IMG/VR virus record: IMGVR_UViG_3300036799_000106
Span: 1-41,054 of that record
Length of the DNA stretch: 41,054 nucleotides
Source: a virus
Strand: one strand, 5' to 3'
Shown: positions 4,670-39,353 of the stretch, piece by piece
Layout of the letters: every line of letters begins with the position of its first letter
How positions within the stretch are numbered: the first letter of the stretch is position 1
The notes under the pieces: model-generated
What the model was told of the DNA's origin: nothing
What the model saw: the letters and a program-made list of their open reading frames with translations, nothing else
Database searches by the model: none
Position numbers and translations under genes: made by a program

Positions 4670-4920
4670 CGCGGAGTTTTCCCGTCATGGAGGATAAGAT
4701 TGAGATAAGCATCTTTTGAATGGGTCCCAAGATTCGAATCGTTCTTGATGATCTCGACGTACTTGGCCACCATGATCTCGTGCTTCTTTATGATTGAGAC
4801 GACTTCCTCGATATCAGCCTTCTGGATGACCTGGCCGAAGAAAGTCATGTGCCTCATCAATTCGGCGATCCATCTGGTATGGCTCATCGCCATGTGGAAG
4901 GCGCTTTCGGATGAGGTCAT
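4666..4920 (-). CDS. Hypothetical helical protein
   Basis: An 84-residue protein starting MTSSESAFHMAMSHTRW, predicted helical, with Met- and His-rich first helices. The ATG overlaps the stop of the DUF2786 gene as ATGA, so the two are translationally coupled. No family recognised. Confidence 0.65.
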   Translation of the reverse strand: MTSSESAFHMAMSHTRWIAELMRHMTFFGQVIQKADIEEVVSIIKKHEIMVAKYVEIIKNDSNLGTHSKDAYLNLILHDGKTPR

Positions 4921-5630
4921 TTCAGCTCCTTGGGCTTGTTCGCGTGAATCTGTGTCGTCAAGTTGATTGTGTCGGCATACGCCTTGCCGCGCTCAAAAGC
5001 CTCCGTGCGAACTGTAGTCTGGCGGGTCTTGGACTTCAAGAGCTTGGTTCCCATCTCTTGAATAAACGCCAGGTTAGCTTCCGCCTCGCGCTTCGCGATA
5101 TCGTAAAGAACGAGAGCTGATCCTGTATTTGTGATATCCCGCTGGGATGCCGCTACAATCTGGTCAATCCTGTGGTAAAGCCGATTTGCAGCGCCGACAC
5201 AAAATGACCGCGCCGGCGGCGTAAGGCGGTGCTTGTACAGCCTGTCAGCCTCTCTGATCAGAGTTTTGATAATCCAATCGGACATATACATCGCGGTAGT
5301 CGCCGCCGATTCGCGGCCGACGAAGTGATGCTCACCTCGAGTCCCGTTGATTTTGCGACCGAAGTAGTACTTGCAGCGAAAGAGCTTTGCCACGCTGTCG
5401 CGAATTGATTTAGCGTAAGGAGCGTTCCATCCATCCATCATAAGATGGACTCGCGGATCTTCGACGTCCCGAAGCGTTAGCGGGACGTCTTCCATGTCTA
5501 GCTCATACTTGGCGAGAAGATCATGCGCCATCTGGAGCGCATTATCGCGCTCGGCCTCTGTAGCTGCCTCGTTGTTGGCCAGCTCCAGCATTTTGCGGAC
5601 TTTGACTAGGATCTTTTCTTCTGTGGTCAT
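4917..5630 (-). CDS. DUF2786 domain protein
   Basis: A 237-residue protein. The first 45 residues (EEKILVKVRKMLELANN..., then ALQMAHDLLAKYELDM) match the DUF2786 domain found in phage and bacterial proteins of unknown function. The middle holds HHFVGRESAATTAMYMSDW and RSFCVGAANRLYHRI, which resemble the region usually following DUF2786. It is the largest gene of the leftward operon. The biochemical role is unknown. Confidence 0.8.
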   Translation of the reverse strand: MTTEEKILVKVRKMLELANNEAATEAERDNALQMAHDLLAKYELDMEDVPLTLRDVEDPRVHLMMDGWNAPYAKSIRDSVAKLFRCKYYFGRKINGTRGEHHFVGRESAATTAMYMSDWIIKTLIREADRLYKHRLTPPARSFCVGAANRLYHRIDQIVAASQRDITNTGSALVLYDIAKREAEANLAFIQEMGTKLLKSKTRQTTVRTEAFERGKAYADTINLTTQIHANKPKELK

Positions 5631-10068: not shown

Positions 10069-10209
10069 CTACTTGGACTTCAGAATCTTGTTGGCGCAGA
10101 ATGATCTGATCCGATGAGGCTTGTCGGGATTGGTCCTGCACCCGAAGCACTCACAGGCTGCGCTGATCCTGCTCAACTTGTGATAGACCCTCATGTAGAT
10201 GAGATTCAT
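10069..10209 (-). CDS. Small Cys-rich basic protein
   Basis: A frame of 46 codons starting MNLIYMRVYHKLSRIS with AGAGGA before the ATG, immediately after the stop of the micro-protein gene 10220-10306. It contains CECFGC, then DKPHRIRSFC, a four-cysteine pattern that could bind zinc, and a basic C-terminus (NKILKSK). A hairpin terminator follows. The function is unknown. The Cys pattern, ribosome site and terminator together support it. Confidence 0.65.
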   Translation of the reverse strand: MNLIYMRVYHKLSRISAACECFGCRTNPDKPHRIRSFCANKILKSK

Positions 10210-10219
10210 TATGATCCTC

Positions 10220-10306
10220 TTAGATCAAGCGATCTGCTTCATTGCAGATCTTCTTGAGCTTGAAAAAGATGCCACCAGCGGTGATCAGAAGGATAGCGGT
10301 GATCAT
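10220..10306 (-). CDS. MITAI-family membrane micro-protein, copy A
   Basis: A 28-residue protein, MITAILLITAGGIFFKL followed by KKICNEADRLI. AAGGA lies seven bases before the ATG. It is one hydrophobic helix (residues 2-15) with a basic-amphipathic tail. Two more genes in this window, 12976-13053 and 14646-14723, start with the same MITAI and have the same shape, on the same strand and also between hairpins. Codons differ among the copies, so protein conservation is indicated. The role is unknown; a small membrane-active protein is inferred. Confidence 0.7.
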   Translation of the reverse strand: MITAILLITAGGIFFKLKKICNEADRLI

Positions 10307-10322
10307 GATTGATCCTTAGAAG

Positions 10323-10355
10323 TGGGGCGGGGAGCTGAACTAGCCTCCCCACCCC
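10323..10355 (-). terminator. Hairpin terminator of the gene at 10369
   Basis: GGGGCGGGGAG and CTCCCCACCCC pair (one C-A mismatch) across a 10-base loop, starting 14 bases after the leftward stop at 10369. A strong GC stem without a clear T run. Confidence 0.55.
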
Positions 10356-10368
10356 TAGGTGATCTAGC

Positions 10369-10959
10369 TTACTGCGCCTGCGCAGCCTGGGCAGCGGCGG
10401 CGTTCTTCAGCGACTCCCGGCGCGCGGTGAACCAGGCCTGATACTGCGTGCGGGCGGTGTAGAAGGCGATCCCCGCCTTGATCCCAGCCTCGATCATGTC
10501 CTTGCGGCGGGCCGTGGGATCCGCGGCGATCATCAAATCGCAGATGGCCCACATCGTCTTCACGGGGCTGACGATCTCGCTCCGCTTCTTGCGATCCGGG
10601 TAGCGATCCACCTTGGGCTGCACCGGAAGCTTGCCCGTTGCGGCTACCGCTGCGGCCGTGGCGGCCAGCATCGCCTGGAGATCCTGCACCGGGGTAACCG
10701 GCGCCACCATCGGCTGATCTGCCACCAGCGGCTCCGGCTGGGTGATCACCTGCACCGGCTGCTCCACCGGCGCAGGTTCGCTGATCAGATCCGCCGGCTT
10801 GGTCTCCTCGATCGTCTCGGGGGCGAGGGCATCCACCTGCGCCTGGAAGCCAGCCTCCTCTTCGGCGACATCATCCTGGGTAGGTGCCACGGGCTCCTGC
10901 TCAGCCGGCTCATTGATGGAGTTGTAGAAGCTGCGGTTCTTGTTCTTGTTCTTGGCCAT
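10369..10959 (-). CDS. Protein with disordered N-terminus and YTARTQYQAW domain
   Basis: A 196-residue protein. Residues 1-10 are basic (MAKNKNKNRS), residues 15-110 are acidic and rich in Pro, Glu and Ala (probably unstructured), and the last 70 form a compact domain: SPVKTMWAICDLMIAADP, RRKDMIEAGIKAGIAF, YTARTQYQAW. The same domain makes up the gene 11467-11787. I have seen related segments in plasmid and phage proteins of unknown function; a small winged-helix-like DNA-binding role is a guess. GGGAG precedes the ATG at 10959; the promoter is at 11023-11051. Confidence 0.7.
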   Translation of the reverse strand: MAKNKNKNRSFYNSINEPAEQEPVAPTQDDVAEEEAGFQAQVDALAPETIEETKPADLISEPAPVEQPVQVITQPEPLVADQPMVAPVTPVQDLQAMLAATAAAVAATGKLPVQPKVDRYPDRKKRSEIVSPVKTMWAICDLMIAADPTARRKDMIEAGIKAGIAFYTARTQYQAWFTARRESLKNAAAAQAAQAQ

Positions 10960-11022
10960 GATTATTGCTCCCTTTTGCTGCATTGCGGGCTAGCACCATT
11001 GCTTGCCCTCATTTCTAAAACC

Positions 11023-11051
11023 ATTATACCCCGGCCCCCTGCCCTTGGCAA
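11023..11051 (-). promoter_or_regulatory. Promoter of the gene at 10959, leftward
   Basis: On the minus strand TTGCCA (11051-11046), 17 bases of G-rich spacer, TATAAT (11028-11023), then GGTTTTA. CCATTTGCCC lies just upstream, as at 11124 and 11941. Confidence 0.75.
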
Positions 11052-11123
11052 CCGGGGCAAATGGAGGCAAATTGCTCTTGCCTGCCCTGCCCCTTTATTT
11101 GCCCCGCGCCAATTCATAAAACC

Positions 11124-11152
11124 ATTATGCCCCATGGCCGGCCTTAAAACAA
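11124..11152 (-). promoter_or_regulatory. Second leftward promoter, no clear gene of its own
   Basis: On the minus strand TTTGCCCACTTG carries the -35 TTGTTT (11152-11147), then 17 bases and CATAAT (11129-11124), then GGTTTTATG. It lies about 100 bases upstream of the promoter at 11023 with similar sequence, so it may be a tandem promoter or the remnant of a lost cassette. Confidence 0.65.
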
Positions 11153-11184
11153 GTGGGCAAATGGAGGGAAAAAGATCCAGCTGA

Positions 11185-11427
11185 TCTAACCAACTGATCA
11201 GTATGAGCAAAGAGGCGAGGAGCAGAAGCGAGCATCTTTGCTTACATGGAGGTGAATGTGGGGAAATGGCGTACATGTAGGGTCGAGTAATCCACGGAGG
11301 GGCGTGTGTAATCCAAAGGGCGGACGTCCCCCCTCCCCGAGGTCTTCCAGGGGTCTTCCAGGGGCGAGTCTCCTACTTTTGCCTACGTTTGCTTACATTG
11401 TCCTCCCTTGGATGCTGTTATAAGGAA
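11185..11427. other. Non-coding stretch in the accessory zone
   Basis: No supported gene. It contains the palindrome ACTGATCAGT (11193-11202), an 11-base tandem repeat (GGTCTTCCAGG twice, near 11341-11362), the TTACATGGAGG and CCTACGTTTGC words typical of this zone, and a short 25-codon rightward frame at 11203 without promoter or ribosome site. It separates the promoter at 11124 from the hairpin at 11428. Confidence 0.5.
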
Positions 11428-11458
11428 ATGGAGGGGGAGGTCATCCCTCCCCCTCCAT
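11428..11458 (-). terminator. Perfect 13-base-pair hairpin terminator
   Basis: ATGGAGGGGGAGG-TCATC-CCTCCCCCTCCAT begins eight bases after the stop of the leftward gene at 11467. It is a strong stem; no long T run follows. Confidence 0.65.
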
Positions 11459-11466
11459 GTACTCCC

Positions 11467-11787
11467 TTAGGCTGCCTTGGCGGCAAGTTCGGCAGGCTTC
11501 CTTACATTGGCGTACCATGCCTGATATTGGGTCCGAGCGGTATACAGCGCCACCCCATACCCTACAGCGGCGCTAACTACCTCCTTACGGGTAACTTGTG
11601 GGTTCTTCTCCCACATCAGGGTAGCAATGGCCCACACCGCCCTAACAGGGCTGCCAATGGAGGACTTGCGGAGCCGATCAGCATCCTTCGGCGCCTTCTC
11701 GCCTCCCTTTCCCTCCTTCGCCTCCATCTCCCCCACCTTAGCAGCCACTTCTTCCATCGTAATCCCGTTGCCCACATTCGCTTCCAT
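11467..11787 (-). CDS. YTARTQYQAW-domain protein with MEANV leader
   Basis: A 106-residue protein. The N-terminus MEANVGNGITMEEVAAK is shared with the gene at 12850 (and its first five residues with 13436). A charged linker follows, then the compact domain SPVRAVWAIATLMWEKNP, TRKEVVSAAVGYGVAL, YTARTQYQAW, paralogous to the end of the gene 10369-10959. AGGAG lies before the ATG; the promoter is at 11835-11863 and the terminator at 11428-11458, so it is a self-contained cassette. The function is unknown. Confidence 0.75.
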   Translation of the reverse strand: MEANVGNGITMEEVAAKVGEMEAKEGKGGEKAPKDADRLRKSSIGSPVRAVWAIATLMWEKNPQVTRKEVVSAAVGYGVALYTARTQYQAWYANVRKPAELAAKAA

Positions 11788-11834
11788 TTGCTTACTCCTG
11801 GGTTAGGGGGGCTTGCTTGCCCCCATCTAAAATA

Positions 11835-11863
11835 ATAATACCATGCCCCCGGCCCCCAAACAA
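11835..11863 (-). promoter_or_regulatory. Cassette promoter, leftward
   Basis: On the minus strand TTGTTT (11863-11858), 17 bases, ATGG then TATTAT (11840-11835). TTTGCCC sits a few bases upstream as in its sister promoters. It drives 11467-11787. Confidence 0.75.
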
Positions 11864-11899
11864 GAGGGCAAACTCCCTACATTTCCTTACATCGTATAC

Positions 11900-11924
11900 C
11901 AATGGAGGAGGCACACCTCCATTG
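11900..11924. terminator. Hairpin between divergent cassettes
   Basis: CAATGGAGG-AGGCACA-CCTCCATTG, a 9-base-pair stem between the leftward promoter at 11835 and the rightward promoter at 11941. It does not follow a gene, so it may be an insulator, an operator or a leftover terminator. Confidence 0.45.
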
Positions 11925-11940
11925 TCCCACGTTTGCCCAC

Positions 11941-11969
11941 TTGACCGGGGGGCAGGGGTATGATAAGAT
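11941..11969 (+). promoter_or_regulatory. Cassette promoter, rightward, leaderless start
   Basis: TTGACC (11941-11946), 17 bases, TAAGAT (11964-11969). TTTGCCCACTTG covers the -35, exactly as in the leftward promoter at 11124. The gene's ATG is at 11976, seven bases past the -10, where transcription normally begins. Confidence 0.75.
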
Positions 11970-11975
11970 TAGTTT

Positions 11976-12182
11976 ATGGAAAAGCATTGGCGGCAGGCAA
12001 AGGCAGCAAGGCAAATGGCATCCAACAGCATCAATCCGGCTCCCTTCCAAAAGAAGGAGCTAATGGAGGCAAAGGCATGCATGTGGCTCCAAGATAGGGC
12101 GCAAGCCGCCATCGCGAGGGAGGCAAGTGCCTTCCTTAAGCAGCACGGGTATACCGCTGGAGGGAAACGTAGGGTCAGGTAG
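11976..12182 (+). CDS. Hypothetical basic helical protein, leaderless
   Basis: A 68-residue basic protein, MEKHWRQAKAARQMASNS then an Ala-rich helix and a Gly-Lys-Arg tail (AGGKRRVR). It is flanked by its own promoter and a terminator (12197-12216). The ATG coincides with the expected transcription start and there is no ribosome site, so translation is probably leaderless. Nucleic-acid binding is possible from composition; no family recognised. Confidence 0.65.
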   Translation: MEKHWRQAKAARQMASNSINPAPFQKKELMEAKACMWLQDRAQAAIAREASAFLKQHGYTAGGKRRVR

Positions 12183-12196
12183 GCAAACGTAGGCAT

Positions 12197-12216
12197 GGGG
12201 GAGGCAAACCTCCCCC
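12197..12216 (+). terminator. Hairpin terminator
   Basis: GGGGGAGG-CAAA-CCTCCCCC, an 8-base-pair GC stem 14 bases after the stop at 12182 and directly before the -35 of the next promoter. Confidence 0.6.
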
Positions 12217-12217
12217 G

Positions 12218-12246
12218 TTGCCAAACAAACCGCGGTATGGTATTAT
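12218..12246 (+). promoter_or_regulatory. Cassette promoter, rightward, leaderless start
   Basis: TTGCCA (12218-12223), 17 bases ending TATGG, TATTAT (12241-12246). The gene's ATG follows at 12253, again seven bases past the -10. Confidence 0.8.
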
Positions 12247-12252
12247 CTTTGT

Positions 12253-12435
12253 ATGGATAACCGAGCCGCGGACGTATTGGTGGAGTATGTAGAATCCTTT
12301 GACCTAGATGCCCCCCTACCTACGGTAGGGGAGGCCATGGAGGAGATTAGACGCTGTGGGGAAAAGGCGTCGGAGGAGGAGGTGGAGGAGTTTTTGGCGA
12401 AGTACGCCGAAACGTGGCAGCTAAAGCGGAAATAG
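12253..12435 (+). CDS. Hypothetical acidic protein, leaderless
   Basis: A 60-residue, very acidic helical protein (MDNRAADVLVEYVESF..., with EEIRRC and a Glu run near residue 42). A promoter and a terminator bound it tightly, and its ATG sits at the expected transcription start without a ribosome site. The small size and strong negative charge recall DNA-mimic or inhibitor proteins of phages, but this is speculation. Confidence 0.7.
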   Translation: MDNRAADVLVEYVESFDLDAPLPTVGEAMEEIRRCGEKASEEEVEEFLAKYAETWQLKRK

Positions 12436-12441
12436 GGTCCG

Positions 12442-12468
12442 AGGGAGGCTATTCGCCTCCCTTTTCTT
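12442..12468 (+). terminator. Rho-independent terminator, convergent
   Basis: AGGGAGGC-TATTC-GCCTCCCT followed by TTTCTT on the plus strand, directly after the stop at 12435. The stop codon of the convergent leftward gene lies in the loop (12449-12451). Confidence 0.75.
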
Positions 12469-12592
12469 CCAACTGATCGGTGATCAGTGATCTGATCTTG
12501 GTGAAATCAGAATCGCGAAGTGCGGCAGCACGTGCATGCCCAAACCCCACAGGGGTTGTGGCGGATGCAAATCCCAGTTTGTTTCCCTCCAT
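12449..12592 (-). CDS. Hypothetical 47-residue protein
   Basis: A frame of 47 codons starting MEGNKLGFASATTPVGFG, then HARAAALRDSDFTKIRS and LITDQLEEKGGE. The residue pattern (a GHARAAAL turn followed by an amphipathic helix) looks like a folded protein, and the stop lies exactly at the convergent terminator. It follows the gene at 12626 on the same leftward message. The ATG lies in the stem of a hairpin (12582-12611). No family recognised. Confidence 0.55.
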   Translation of the reverse strand: MEGNKLGFASATTPVGFGHARAAALRDSDFTKIRSLITDQLEEKGGE

Positions 12593-12611
12593 TTACCTAC
12601 ATGGAGGGAAA
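12582..12611 (-). promoter_or_regulatory. Intercistronic hairpin covering a start codon
   Basis: TTTCCCTCCAT and ATGGAGGGAAA form an 11-base-pair stem with an eight-base loop between the leftward genes at 12626 and 12592. The ATG of the downstream gene is in the stem, so it may end transcription or limit translation of that gene. Confidence 0.55.
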
Positions 12612-12625
12612 CGTAGGCTTTTAGC

Positions 12626-12850
12626 TTACGTATAAATCTCTTCGCCCACCTTTACCTCCACTCCCCTATACAACTCCTCCAACTCCTCCAATCCCATATC
12701 ATACCTTACATCCCACCCATCGCAAACGCAAGGCAGCCAATACTCTACAAAATCCTCCATACCATACTCATTCCCTCCATAAATCGCCTCTTCCTTATAT
12801 TCCCTTACAATCGCTTCCATCGTAATATACTCGCCCACGTTAGCCTCCAT
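12626..12850 (-). CDS. Hypothetical acidic protein with MEANV leader
   Basis: A 74-residue acidic protein. It begins MEANVGEYITMEAIVRE, nearly the same as the gene starting at 11787, then diverges into a Tyr- and Glu-rich part (YWLPCVCDGWDVRYDMG). The AAGGGG ribosome site lies inside a perfect hairpin (12852-12870). The promoter is at 12885-12913. The function is unknown. Confidence 0.7.
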   Translation of the reverse strand: MEANVGEYITMEAIVREYKEEAIYGGNEYGMEDFVEYWLPCVCDGWDVRYDMGLEELEELYRGVEVKVGEEIYT

Positions 12851-12851
12851 C

Positions 12852-12870
12852 GCGCCCCTTTATGGGGCGC
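12852..12870 (-). promoter_or_regulatory. Hairpin sequestering a ribosome site
   Basis: GCGCCCC-ATAAA-GGGGCGC on the minus strand, a 7-base-pair GC stem ending one base before the ATG at 12850. The only ribosome site (AAGGGG) is in the loop and 3' arm, so the folded message should be poorly translated until it opens. Confidence 0.6.
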
Positions 12871-12884
12871 TCCATCTAAAAAAT

Positions 12885-12913
12885 ATTATATAGCGCCCCC
12901 GATTTTAAATCAA
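12885..12913 (-). promoter_or_regulatory. Cassette promoter, leftward
   Basis: On the minus strand TTGATT (12913-12908), 17 bases, TATAAT (12890-12885), then ATTTTTTAGATGG. It drives 12850-12626 and probably 12592-12449. Confidence 0.75.
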
Positions 12914-12925
12914 GAGCGCCAAGTA

Positions 12926-12958
12926 CCCTACATGTAGCTTTTTAGCTTACATGTAGGG
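12926..12958 (-). terminator. Perfect 11-base-pair hairpin terminator
   Basis: CCCTACATGTA and TACATGTAGGG around an 11-base loop, 18 bases after the stop of the micro-protein gene at 12976. Confidence 0.55.
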
Positions 12959-12975
12959 CAATGGAGGACGTTTCC

Positions 12976-13053
12976 CTACCTGAGCTGCTTAGCGGTGGCG
13001 TATAGCTGCGAACCGATGCCAAGGAGCGCCACAAGGAGGATAGCGGTAATCAT
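12976..13053 (-). CDS. MITAI-family membrane micro-protein, copy B
   Basis: A 25-residue protein, MITAILLVALLGIGSQLY followed by ATAKQLR. GAGG lies seven bases before the ATG; the promoter is at 13108-13136 and a hairpin follows at 12926. It closely matches copy C (14646-14723) along its whole length (GSQ, then AKQL at the end) and copy A in the first seven residues. One hydrophobic helix with a short basic tail indicates an inner-membrane peptide. The function is unknown. Confidence 0.75.
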   Translation of the reverse strand: MITAILLVALLGIGSQLYATAKQLR

Positions 13054-13107
13054 TGTATGCCTCTGTAGGACGTTTGAGCACCATGCCCATTTGCCCTTAC
13101 AAAAATC

Positions 13108-13136
13108 ATATTACCATATCCTCTGCGGCGCCGCAA
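13108..13136 (-). promoter_or_regulatory. Cassette promoter, leftward
   Basis: On the minus strand TTGCGG (13136-13131), 17 bases ending ATGG, TAATAT (13113-13108), then GATTTT. TGTTGCGGCGCC is shared with the promoter at 13473. It drives copy B of the micro-protein. Confidence 0.75.
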
Positions 13137-13193
13137 CACCTCCATCGACCTCCAATGGAGGACGTGCTTCTTAATCTCACGGTGTGGGTGTGA

Positions 13194-13220
13194 TGCCTCC
13201 ATCTACCTCTCATGGAGGCA
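13194..13220 (-). terminator. Hairpin terminator
   Basis: TGCCTCCAT-CTACCTCTC-ATGGAGGCA, a 9-base-pair stem 22 bases after the stop of the leftward gene at 13242. Confidence 0.55.
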
Positions 13221-13241
13221 GATGGAGGCAACCGTACTACT

Positions 13242-13436
13242 TCAGCGGCACTCCTCCCACCTTTCCCTCACTACTTCCATCTCCCATGTATTCCACTGGA
13301 GGACAATTCCATACTTTTCCCTCATGTATTTCATCATGGAGGGAAATCGCATCCTTTTCCCTGCATTGAAGGAGGTTTCCAGATATTCATCCACAATGTG
13401 GGTTAACCGATTCGCATTCTGCACGTTTGCCTCCAT
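13242..13436 (-). CDS. Hypothetical protein with MEANV leader
   Basis: A 64-residue basic protein starting MEANVQNANRLTHIVDEY, third member of the MEANV set, with a helical, Met-rich remainder (FPSMMKYMREKYG) ending VVRERWEECR. AAGGAG lies six bases before the ATG at 13436. An in-frame ATG at 13466 sits seven bases past the -10 and would give a leaderless form with ten extra residues (MNCEGAKENT). The function is unknown. Confidence 0.65.
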   Translation of the reverse strand: MEANVQNANRLTHIVDEYLETSFNAGKRMRFPSMMKYMREKYGIVLQWNTWEMEVVRERWEECR

Positions 13437-13472
13437 TGTATTCTCCTTGGCGCCTTCGCAATTCATAAAATC

Positions 13473-13501
13473 ATAATACCATATATCTGGAGGCGCCGCA
13501 A
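13473..13501 (-). promoter_or_regulatory. Cassette promoter, leftward
   Basis: On the minus strand TTGCGG (13501-13496), 17 bases ending TATGG, TATTAT (13478-13473), GATTTTATGAATT. It drives 13436-13242. Confidence 0.75.
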
Positions 13502-13509
13502 CAGCCACG

Positions 13510-13540
13510 TTTCCCTCCACCGTGCACCGATGGAGGGAAA
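13510..13540 (-). terminator. Hairpin terminator
   Basis: TTTCCCTCCA and TGGAGGGAAA pair over an 11-base loop, 14 bases after the stop of the leftward gene at 13555. Confidence 0.6.
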
Positions 13541-13554
13541 TGGAGGACGTGCTG

Positions 13555-14058
13555 CTACGGTGACGGGTCCCATCCGGCAGCGCGTTCTGCACGCCGCACT
13601 TCTTCCGGCACGCCATCATCAGTTTCACACCTGTGAAACTTGTTTTCAAAATCATGTGTTCCGCACGGGCAGTGAGTGAGCTCGCAGTCATGCCCGGTGA
13701 GCTCATATTTCTGTTGACATTTCGCCGTCTTTGCTTCACGGCGCTTCTGTGCAGCCTGTGCGCGCTGCACGGACCAGTGAGCTCGCTTGGAGCTCAGTGC
13801 AACCTCTTTGAGCATCGCCTCCTGGCGCTTTTGGTCACGGGCGAAGCGCCAATTCTGTGCGGTGAAGCCATACTCACTCGCCCCAGACCGCTTTTCCTCG
13901 TTGATGAGAAAATCAAGTTGCTTCTGGAGATGCTCCAGTGTGAAGTTAGGTTTCTCATCATTCTCAATGGAGCCGTCACATTCATTTTCATACACACATT
14001 CGGCGAGGTCACGGAGGATGGTGCGGTATTTCGCTTCGGCTTTGGTGTGCTTGTCCAT
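13555..14058 (-). CDS. Hypothetical helical protein with C-terminal Cys/His cluster
   Basis: A 167-residue protein starting MDKHTKAEAKYRTIL. The middle is long, charged and helical (KEVALSSKRAHWSVQRAQ); near residue 126 CELTHCPCGTHDF then FHRC form a cluster that could bind zinc. GGGAGA about ten bases before the ATG lies in a leader repeated before the gene at 14321. The words GAGCTC recur four times within it. No family recognised. Confidence 0.65.
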   Translation of the reverse strand: MDKHTKAEAKYRTILRDLAECVYENECDGSIENDEKPNFTLEHLQKQLDFLINEEKRSGASEYGFTAQNWRFARDQKRQEAMLKEVALSSKRAHWSVQRAQAAQKRREAKTAKCQQKYELTGHDCELTHCPCGTHDFENKFHRCETDDGVPEEVRRAERAAGWDPSP

Positions 14059-14321
14059 GTGAAACATTCTCCCACAGTTTGCAGCTGCTGGCAGCTGCTT
14101 GTTTGGAGCTTCGGGTTGTGCACCCAGGACGGTGCGCAGCTCGGATGGAAGACTTTCCATCCATCAGCCCCCTTGATGAGACACGCCTTGTTTTTCGGCG
14201 TCACCGCCATCCCGTGATTGAGACACTTTGACCCAGCTGCACACTTCTGGATGAAGCGCGGCTCTTGCCACTGTGCAGTTTCATTGGTTTCAGGATTCTT
14301 GAATTTTGCGATGTAGGCCAT
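13794..14321 (-). CDS. Cys-rich protein overlapping the next gene
   Basis: A 175-residue reading starting MAYIAKFKNPETNETAQW with GGGAGA before the ATG. Only the first 80 or so residues look protein-like: CAAGSKCLNHG, then KNKACLIKGADGWKVFHPSC, a zinc-ribbon-like pattern. The remaining 88 residues run 265 bases into the next gene in another frame and are low-complexity, Ser- and Arg-rich. Either the overlap is real or a one-base shift has removed the original stop. Confidence 0.5.
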   Translation of the reverse strand: MAYIAKFKNPETNETAQWQEPRFIQKCAAGSKCLNHGMAVTPKNKACLIKGADGWKVFHPSCAPSWVHNPKLQTSSCQQLQTVGECFTWTSTPKPKRNTAPSSVTSPNVCMKMNVTAPLRMMRNLTSHWSISRSNLIFSSTRKSGLGRVSMASPHRIGASPVTKSARRRCSKRLH

Positions 14322-14339
14322 GTGAAGATTCTCCCACAG

Positions 14340-14367
14340 ATCGGGCCCCCGGTCACGGGAGCCCGAT
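14340..14367 (-). terminator. Hairpin after the gene at 14371
   Basis: ATCGGGC and GCCCGAT close a 14-base loop that can itself pair further. It follows the stop of the leftward gene by three bases and precedes the leader of the gene at 14321. Confidence 0.5.
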
Positions 14368-14370
14368 TGC

Positions 14371-14574
14371 TTAGATGGAGGCAGGAAGCGGCGTCTGGTC
14401 GACCCAGGCATCCACTATCGCCATGGCCGTCACGAGGCCTTTGTCGGTGTGCGTAATGTAGCTCCCGTTGGGGAAACAGATGCACCAGTAGGGAGTGTGC
14501 GGCGGCACACCCACCGTGTACTCCACGATGATGGTATAGCCCCTGTAGTGCAGCCGGCGCTTGTTGTTATCCAT
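14371..14574 (-). CDS. Hypothetical protein, possibly leaderless
   Basis: A 67-residue protein starting MDNNKRRLHYRGYTIIVEY, mostly beta (YWCICFPNGSYITH) with a C-terminal helix (AMAIVDAWVDQ). The ATG lies eight bases past the -10 GATACT, so a leaderless message is likely. No family recognised. Confidence 0.65.
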   Translation of the reverse strand: MDNNKRRLHYRGYTIIVEYTVGVPPHTPYWCICFPNGSYITHTDKGLVTAMAIVDAWVDQTPLPASI

Positions 14575-14581
14575 GGTTAGT

Positions 14582-14610
14582 AGTATCCTATAACTAGAGT
14601 TTGTTGGCAA
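14582..14610 (-). promoter_or_regulatory. Cassette promoter, leftward
   Basis: On the minus strand TTGCCA (14610-14605), 17 bases, GATACT (14587-14582). It drives 14574-14371 and probably the two genes beyond it. Confidence 0.6.
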
Positions 14611-14617
14611 CGAGGCA

Positions 14618-14640
14618 AGTGGAGGCTTTGTGCCTCCACT
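14618..14640 (-). terminator. Hairpin terminator of micro-protein copy C
   Basis: AGTGGAGGC-TTTGT-GCCTCCACT, a 9-base-pair stem starting five bases after the stop at 14646. Confidence 0.65.
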
Positions 14641-14645
14641 GGAGG

Positions 14646-14723
14646 CTAGTTAAGCTGCTTGGCCATCTTATAGAACTGGCTGCCCACACCGAGGACCGTA
14701 AGGAGGATAATGGCGGTAATCAT
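14646..14723 (-). CDS. MITAI-family membrane micro-protein, copy C
   Basis: A 25-residue protein, MITAIILLTVLGVGSQFY followed by KMAKQLN. It aligns end to end with copy B (MITAI, LG-GSQ-Y, AKQL) and shares MITAI and the hydrophobic helix with copy A. AAGGGG lies before the ATG; it has its own promoter (14768-14796) and terminator (14618-14640), making it a monocistronic micro-gene. The function is unknown; membrane insertion is inferred. Confidence 0.75.
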   Translation of the reverse strand: MITAIILLTVLGVGSQFYKMAKQLN

Positions 14724-14767
14724 TTGCTTGCCCCTTTGCTTTGGTTTGCTTGCCCTAACTGAAAACC

Positions 14768-14796
14768 ATTATGCCATGCCCCTTGCCCCCGGTCAA
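14768..14796 (-). promoter_or_regulatory. Cassette promoter, leftward
   Basis: On the minus strand TTGACC (14796-14791), 17 bases ending ATGG, CATAAT (14773-14768), then GGTTTT. It drives only the micro-protein gene 14723-14646. Confidence 0.75.
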
Positions 14797-14811
14797 CGGC
14801 TCCGATGGAGG

Positions 14812-15001
14812 ACAACGTGGCAGATTTCAAAGGGGCTCCCCGTCACAGCGGGGGTTCACTGTTTTCGAACGAATCCAATTCTAAACGGGTAGATCCTGTT
14901 CAGACGACTAAACAGTCCTGTCTAAATAAAGTTAGACAGCAATGGAGTCAACTCCATTGATCCTAAAATAAATCAGGTTCTCTGTAGGATCTAGAAAACA
15001 T
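14812..15001. repeat. Inverted-repeat-rich region upstream of packaging genes, candidate cos/pac
   Basis: No gene. It contains CTGTCTAA/TTAGACAG (14918-14939), AATGGAGT-CA-ACTCCATT (14941-14958), GATCCTA/TAGGATC (14959-14991), and CCCCG/CGGGG near 14838-14853. A 13-base direct repeat GGTAGATCCTGTT occurs at 14888-14900 and again at 15042-15054 within the leader of the packaging genes. Its place immediately before the putative small terminase is where cos or pac sites usually lie; that role is inferred. Confidence 0.45.
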
Positions 15002-15764: not shown

Positions 15765-16430
15765 GTGATACTAGAGAAGATACTAGCGTTGAAACTGCCA
15801 TCAAGGCACGCGGCGTATGCAACAGCGTACGCTGAAGCCGCTCAGGTGAACAGAACGGCGCTTTTATCTTCTCTAGAGTTTGCTTTGATTCACGCGGCGC
15901 TGATTGATCGCGAATCTTTTACCAAAGACGGCTACTGGGCACTACGGCCTCCGGGTCCCGCCGGTACTGGAGATCCCAGTAACCGTTGGTACAATGATGA
16001 CGCGATTCCAGAAGCTGTTGAGCCGTTGATTGAGGCTCTCTTTACTGGTCGCAGCCGCAAAGACAAACACGGCAAAACGCAGTTAGAAGTGAGACCCCCG
16101 AAATGGGTGGACGCTACGTATCCTGGATGGGGGTATGGGCTCGGTCAAATCGATTTTGCGGCGCCGAAGAAGTTTGAAGGTCTCACCAATAAAGATTGGC
16201 TCGCGAAGTACGACTGGAAGAACCCGCGATTTAATCTGATGCGGTCGGCTGCCATCTTGTTGGACTCGCTTGTACATTTCAATGATATTAGAATGGGGAT
16301 TGCTGGCTACAATGCGCGCTTTGATTTGGTAGACCCCAAAGATCCCGACAAGTTTACCACAGGTCATGATTATAGCGAAGACGTGCTAACGCGCGCAACC
16401 CGTTTTGGCCTCGATAGGAAACTGGTATGA
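15765..16430 (+). CDS. Lytic transglycosylase-like protein
   Basis: A 221-residue protein with the three hallmarks of SLT/goose-lysozyme-type transglycosylases: a catalytic Glu in HAALIDRESF (about residue 50), GYGLGQIDF (about residue 122) and GIAGYNARFD (about residue 178). It would cut peptidoglycan glycan strands. The start is GTG at 15765. It lies upstream of the large terminase, away from the spanin and holin genes, so it may be virion-associated for DNA entry, or be the endolysin. No signal peptide is seen. Confidence 0.75.
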   Translation: MILEKILALKLPSRHAAYATAYAEAAQVNRTALLSSLEFALIHAALIDRESFTKDGYWALRPPGPAGTGDPSNRWYNDDAIPEAVEPLIEALFTGRSRKDKHGKTQLEVRPPKWVDATYPGWGYGLGQIDFAAPKKFEGLTNKDWLAKYDWKNPRFNLMRSAAILLDSLVHFNDIRMGIAGYNARFDLVDPKDPDKFTTGHDYSEDVLTRATRFGLDRKLV

Positions 16431-38975: not shown

Positions 38976-39353
38976 ATGGATTGGCAGCCTATCATACTGA
39001 AAGCTTTAGATACGCTGCCAATCACTGTAACTGCAGTTGGTGGAACTGCTATTACGTTCTACAAGATCTTAACTAAGATGATGGAGAAAAGATTAAAGCC
39101 TCTCGAAGATGGACAAGCAGATATTAAGAAAGCTACTAAGTCTGTGATTCAGTCTCAAGGAAAGATGAAGAAGCAGTTAGATGGTCATACTAAGATGTTA
39201 ACTAAAGCAACTGAAGCTCAAGGCATCATCAAAGGTTATCAACGAGCTAAGAGAGATGCTCGGTATGATCGCAGAGAATTAGTGAAAGTTCGCAAAAAAG
39301 TTGCTCAACCGCCTAAGTCAGGTATTCCAAGAAGGCGACGTACAGATAGGTAG
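38976..39353 (+). CDS. Holin-like membrane protein
   Basis: A 125-residue protein. One membrane helix (residues 12-32, TLPITVTAVGGTAITFYKIL) is followed by a coiled-coil-like middle and a very basic tail (RRELVKVRKKVAQ, IPRRRRTDR). This is like single-helix phage holins, and it sits two genes after the spanin candidate. Holin activity is inferred from topology and place. Confidence 0.55.
   Translation: MDWQPIILKALDTLPITVTAVGGTAITFYKILTKMMEKRLKPLEDGQADIKKATKSVIQSQGKMKKQLDGHTKMLTKATEAQGIIKGYQRAKRDARYDRRELVKVRKKVAQPPKSGIPRRRRTDR

Follow-up and report, generated by a model that had tools for sequence, protein, structure and literature searches.

MITAI, a family of predicted membrane micropeptide genes in a contractile-tailed phage

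A virus record of 41,054 bases, analysed whole and called the window here, carries a family of very short leftward genes, named MITAI after the first residues of their products. That the family exists is well supported; its function we infer only. On the reading we prefer, which we put at a probability of roughly 0.45, the MITAI genes encode three translated and selected single-pass membrane micropeptides that are made early and modulate a host membrane protein. Annotation usually overlooks genes as short as 25 codons, and one genome by itself gives no means of testing them for selection; in this phage an internal duplication supplies the comparison, and protein-level selection on an orphan micropeptide can be demonstrated.

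The record is that of a contractile-tailed phage and encodes a Mu-type portal (Pfam Portal_Mu), a large terminase, a major head protein and a tail sheath; at one of its ends lies a fragment of a DNA polymerase. A TerL search of IMG/VR matched one contig, at 45% identity, and no portal or capsid relatives were found there, suggesting that the phage has almost no close relatives.

Coding evidence and family membership

The three leftward MITAI frames reported by a first-pass annotation of this DNA were confirmed in the list of open reading frames: copy A at 10220..10306 (28 aa, MITAILLITAGGIFFKLKKICNEADRLI), copy B at 12976..13053 (25 aa, MITAILLVALLGIGSQLYATAKQLR) and copy C at 14646..14723 (25 aa, MITAIILLTVLGVGSQFYKMAKQLN). 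B and C are paralogues of each other, while A is diverged and does not have the GSQ. The ribosome sites claimed for them also held up, as words resembling such a site stand 5' of each frame (AAGGA in A, AGAGG in B and AAAGGGG in C). Each peptide has an N-terminal hydrophobic stretch of about 14 residues followed by a basic C-terminal part; the best 14-mer scores 2.3-2.6 on the Kyte-Doolittle scale and the net charge is +2 in A, B and C alike. One hydrophobic segment with a basic tail, as previously described, is therefore supported for all three copies. With so short a hydrophobic stretch, the helix could also be peripheral or tilted. Given the constraint between B and C described below and the ribosome-site words, the frames appear to be protein-coding, and their products are predicted to be phage single-pass membrane micropeptides.

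A chance origin of the set was rejected, and its rarity was tested in two ways. The window has three occurrences of the degenerate start pattern ATGATYACCGCNATHHTNCT, and 100 shuffles had none. A micro-ORF filter that makes no use of the MITAI motif (an ATG, a ribosome-site word and a hydrophobic 14-mer, with ORFs overlapped by a larger one discarded) returned exactly A, B and C over the 41-kb window, and ten shuffled windows gave zero or one micro-ORF each even without the overlap filter.

B and C align end to end, as the first-pass annotation had proposed, with 16 of 25 residues (64%) and 50 of 78 bases identical. By the NG86 method pN is 0.27, pS 0.68, dN 0.33 and dS 1.76, so that dN/dS is about 0.19 and not near 1. 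Third positions hold 16 of the 28 differences, and when the same 28 substitutions were placed at random, 16 identical residues were reached in 0.02% of 20,000 trials (P 0.0002). Conservation is confined to one reading frame, the alternative frames having stops or diverging. From their sequences, then, B and C are genuine paralogues that code for protein. The earlier claim of selection for the peptide is likewise supported, by the dN/dS, by the one-frame conservation and by the retention of three copies. B and C agree at G12, G14, S15, Q16, Y18, A21, K22, Q23 and L24, which include the GSQ and AKQL noted earlier. Since these positions are fixed while substitutions in the hydrophobic half are conservative, the small and polar G-x-G-S-Q-x-Y..AKQL segment suggests, from one pair, a specific contact surface and not hydrophobicity alone.

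No relatives were found beyond this genome. Profile searches of Pfam or NCBIfam (E up to 0.1) and PHROG (0.001) gave no match for MITAI, a tblastn search of phages with B and C gave no credible match, and a MITAI profile run without a positive control against 16 related virus records returned none. The start pattern was present in 18 IMG/VR contigs, none of which encodes a peptide resembling MITAI along its length; the 70-aa MITAILLTAF family that dominates them is unrelated. The pattern GSQ[FL]Y..AKQL had no match in IMG/VR and four in GTDB, which is about the chance level, one of them within a LysR-like ORF. As profile, tblastn and degenerate-DNA searches all found no homologue, MITAI appears to be an orphan family among the phages, IMG/VR and GTDB searched. 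The first-pass annotation had counted a lack of homologues anywhere against its proposal; outside the genome that lack holds, yet within it the paralogues B and C by themselves supply the evidence for coding. The case for selection accordingly depends on a single pair of 25-codon genes.

Copy A is probably a third, diverged member, and the proposed family of three paralogues thus stands firmly for B and C and with probability for A. The first 20 nt of A and B are identical at 18 positions, and the first seven residues, MITAILL, are common to both. After residue 7, the body of A is similar to that of C (shuffle P=0.0014) and does not match that of B (P=0.37), both comparisons being of very short sequences. 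Recombination could have spread promoter-start segments, in which case A would have borrowed its MITAI start and would not be homologous. The fading of the likeness between A and B past residue 7 fits such an exchange, as do the genes at 11787, 12850 and 13436, leftward in the window, in which a common MEANV start precedes different bodies, as though such segments had been swapped between genes. We nevertheless hold a borrowed start to be quite unlikely, since the similarity of B and C runs to their last residues, the body of A is like that of C, and A shares neither the promoter nor the leader of B and C.

Promoters, hairpins and the surrounding small genes

The MITAI genes lie in a leftward block of small genes (9.9-14.8 kb) with 11 host-type promoters against 3.4 expected. 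The promoter of C (14768..14796, leftward) reads TTGACC-17-CATAAT with a TG before the -10 box and scores 10/12 in a consensus scan. That of B (13108..13136, leftward), TTGCGG-17-TAATAT after TATGG, was located by aligning the two cassettes and includes a match to TATGGTAATAT at 13118; it is homologous to the promoter of C. Of the promoters that the first-pass annotation had assigned to B and C, the latter is therefore strong, and the former is present but weak by consensus. Because the cassettes of B and C match in the -10 region, the leader (AGGGCAA..) and the coding sequence, from promoter to stop, the alignment shows the duplicated unit to be promoter, leader and gene.

The hairpins described for B and C were also recovered. 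Leftward of C, a stem formed by AGTGGAGGC and GCCTCCACT, without a T run, occupies approximately 14612..14640, limits read from the sequence, and the RNA fold of 14580-14645 has a z of -2.8. Two strong hairpins follow B on the same strand (12891..12960, z -8.3); the distal one overlaps the promoter of the next gene, and 12921-12891 is a terminator-like site.

Copy A has no promoter of its own. It begins 62 nt downstream of a gene for an RTQYQAW-domain protein (protein 1, 10369..10983, leftward), from which a hairpin-bearing spacer (10307..10368, z -3.0) separates it, and it is presumably read through from the promoter of that gene (11023..11051, leftward, TTGCCA-17-TATAAT, consensus scan 11/12). 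A leftward Cys-rich ORF of 46 aa without a PHROG match (10069..10209) starts 10 nt after A and is possibly coupled to it.

Two other features of the block were observed. Start codons lie 6-7 nt past a -10 box at window positions 11976 (+), 12253 (+) and 14574 (-), suggesting leaderless transcripts. With up to one mismatch allowed, the decamer AYGKAGGSAA has 37 copies on the two strands of 10900-14900, where 1.8 are expected; some copies are in tandem at 10-bp spacing and some extend over start codons of MEANV genes, and they are possibly binding sites or repeats.

Possible functions of the peptides

Bacterial single-pass micropeptides such as KdpF, AcrZ, MgtS and CydX have about 25-50 aa and one transmembrane helix and bind membrane protein complexes. 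The MITAI peptides are similar in size and have one predicted helix, and differ in being phage-borne, in forming three paralogues and in showing no sequence relation to those proteins. Mainly because of this analogy and the conserved small and polar segment, we consider it most likely that the MITAI peptides modulate a host membrane protein in early infection. The membrane micro-ORFs found after RTQYQAW genes of other phages, described below, also speak for this reading. Host RNA polymerase would make the peptides early, a timing suggested by the promoters only. In the inner membrane their N-terminus would face outwards and their tail the cytoplasm, the side on which the positive-inside rule places a basic tail. 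The conserved G-x-G-S-Q-x-Y..AKQL segment would then pack against a hypothetical host partner whose modulation would serve host takeover or exclusion, and copies under different promoters would be dosage or timing variants. Among the roles raised by the first-pass annotation, a membrane toxin and exclusion or modulation are thus possible, and holin or antiholin activity is disfavoured. The passages drawn on from a review of phage small proteins of <100 aa concern mainly soluble regulators (PMC11323111); like these, the MITAI peptides would be encoded by short phage ORFs and would act on the host, and unlike the regulators in those passages they are membrane-type and triplicated.

The main rival, unlikely in our estimation, is that MITAI resembles type I toxins and depolarises or perforates the host membrane, which RNA or expression timing would check. 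Type I toxin families such as Ldr and Ibs occur in several copies, as MITAI does. Small size, a hydrophobic helix and a cationic C-terminus are common features of type I toxins (PMC8309996), and TisB, IbsC, LdrA, Fst and AapA1 are like MITAI in length, in having one helix and in the cationic C-terminus, which in MITAI is predicted to be cytosolic. MITAI may differ from them, no antisense antitoxin having been detected. An Rfam search gave no antisense RNA family, no rightward promoter scoring 9/12 or more lies close to C, and the single rightward site before B (+12804) is at chance level. Nor did the Pfam, NCBIfam and PHROG searches match a known toxin family.

That translation of MITAI controls the next gene, as a leader peptide or cis-regulatory upstream ORF whose own product is unimportant, seems very unlikely. 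Short ORFs followed by hairpins would suit this arrangement, as would the 46-aa ORF so close behind A. However, the genes downstream of the three copies are unrelated, the successor of B has its own promoter and that of C a promoter-like site, and the purifying selection seen between B and C acts on residues, those of the C-terminal half included.

A late role in lysis beside the endolysin (holin, pinholin or antiholin), raised by the first-pass annotation in its holin and antiholin forms, is highly improbable: the peptides are suitably short, hydrophobic and basic-tailed, but known holins are much larger than 25-28 aa, B and C each have a host-type promoter, and MITAI lies on the strand opposite to the structural genes and the lysozyme-like ORF at 15765-16430, which are rightward. 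This ORF was recognised by eye and has no family match; with opposite strands and own promoters, MITAI shows no late-operon linkage to the endolysin, and PHROG and Pfam gave it no holin match. A 125-aa ORF with a hydrophobic N-terminus (38976-39353), beside a peptidase gene (phrog_16701), is a better-placed candidate.

RTQYQAW genes and downstream micro-ORFs

The C-terminal domain of RTQYQAW protein 1, the gene before copy A, is paralogous (E 2e-20) to that of a second gene in the block, protein 2 (11467..11787, leftward, 106 aa). The true start of protein 1 may be the ATG of MAKNKNKN at 10959, preceded by AAAGGGAG, and not the called start at 10983. AlphaFold predicts three helices for the domain (pLDDT 92), HTH-like in arrangement, and the Foldseek matches, weak ones with a best E of 0.9, include many homeodomain-type or other DNA-binding folds; DNA binding is suggested by these models.

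The domain is present in 14 IMG/VR contigs and in named phages of Stenotrophomonas, Pseudomonas, Variovorax, Vibrio, Burkholderia and Achromobacter, and further of Shewanella, Rhizobium, Sulfitobacter, Aminobacter and Microcystis. A DUF2786/DUF7168 protein is encoded elsewhere in the window at 4917-5630 (-), and its relatives occur in BcepGomr, ART, Me-ZS1 and S0112, which likewise carry RTQYQAW.

With the micro-ORF filter fixed and genes fixed by position, same-strand micro-ORFs were counted up to 600 nt downstream of each gene. An initial run, whose poor gene calling left out most of the RTQYQAW genes, gave p=0.19. Micro-ORFs followed 3 of 13 RTQYQAW genes in the discovery loci (3 of 227 other genes) and 3 of 15 in later, fresh loci (2 of 143 other genes, p 0.006); for all loci pooled the counts are 6/28 against 5/370 (p 2.6e-5), with the 600-nt limit chosen after viewing loci that are not fully independent. 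None of the last four loci added had one. The positive loci are L025, L033, L034, L062, L063 and L065, with peptides unlike MITAI in sequence. In Achromobacter phage vB_Ade_ART, Shewanella phage S0112 and Rhizobium phage RHph_X3_2 the micro-ORFs resemble copy A in position and architecture and differ from MITAI in being single copies without sequence similarity to it. As most members of the RTQYQAW family have no downstream micro-ORF, the pairing is an association worth testing and no rule. Unrelated membrane micro-ORFs recurring after one gene family would offer a searchable handle on unannotated phage micropeptides.

It is a long shot that the two genes form a module in unrelated proteobacterial phages, in which an HTH-like DNA-binding RTQYQAW protein and a small membrane anchor would act together, for example by holding phage DNA, or its repeat-rich early region, at the host membrane. 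Were this so, the phage studied here would have the DNA-binding part duplicated and the membrane part triplicated.

The RTQYQAW gene is also doubled, as in the window, in L066 and L071 (Rhizobium phage RHEph05). Over the whole window GATC reaches 352 occurrences, a 2.2-fold excess, of which 71 fall within 8-11 kb and none within 13-14 kb. A similar patchy bias is seen in Shewanella phage S0112, where, beside the RTQYQAW gene, GGCAGCGATG words recur and one stretch is rich in GATC (L063, 2300-5300).
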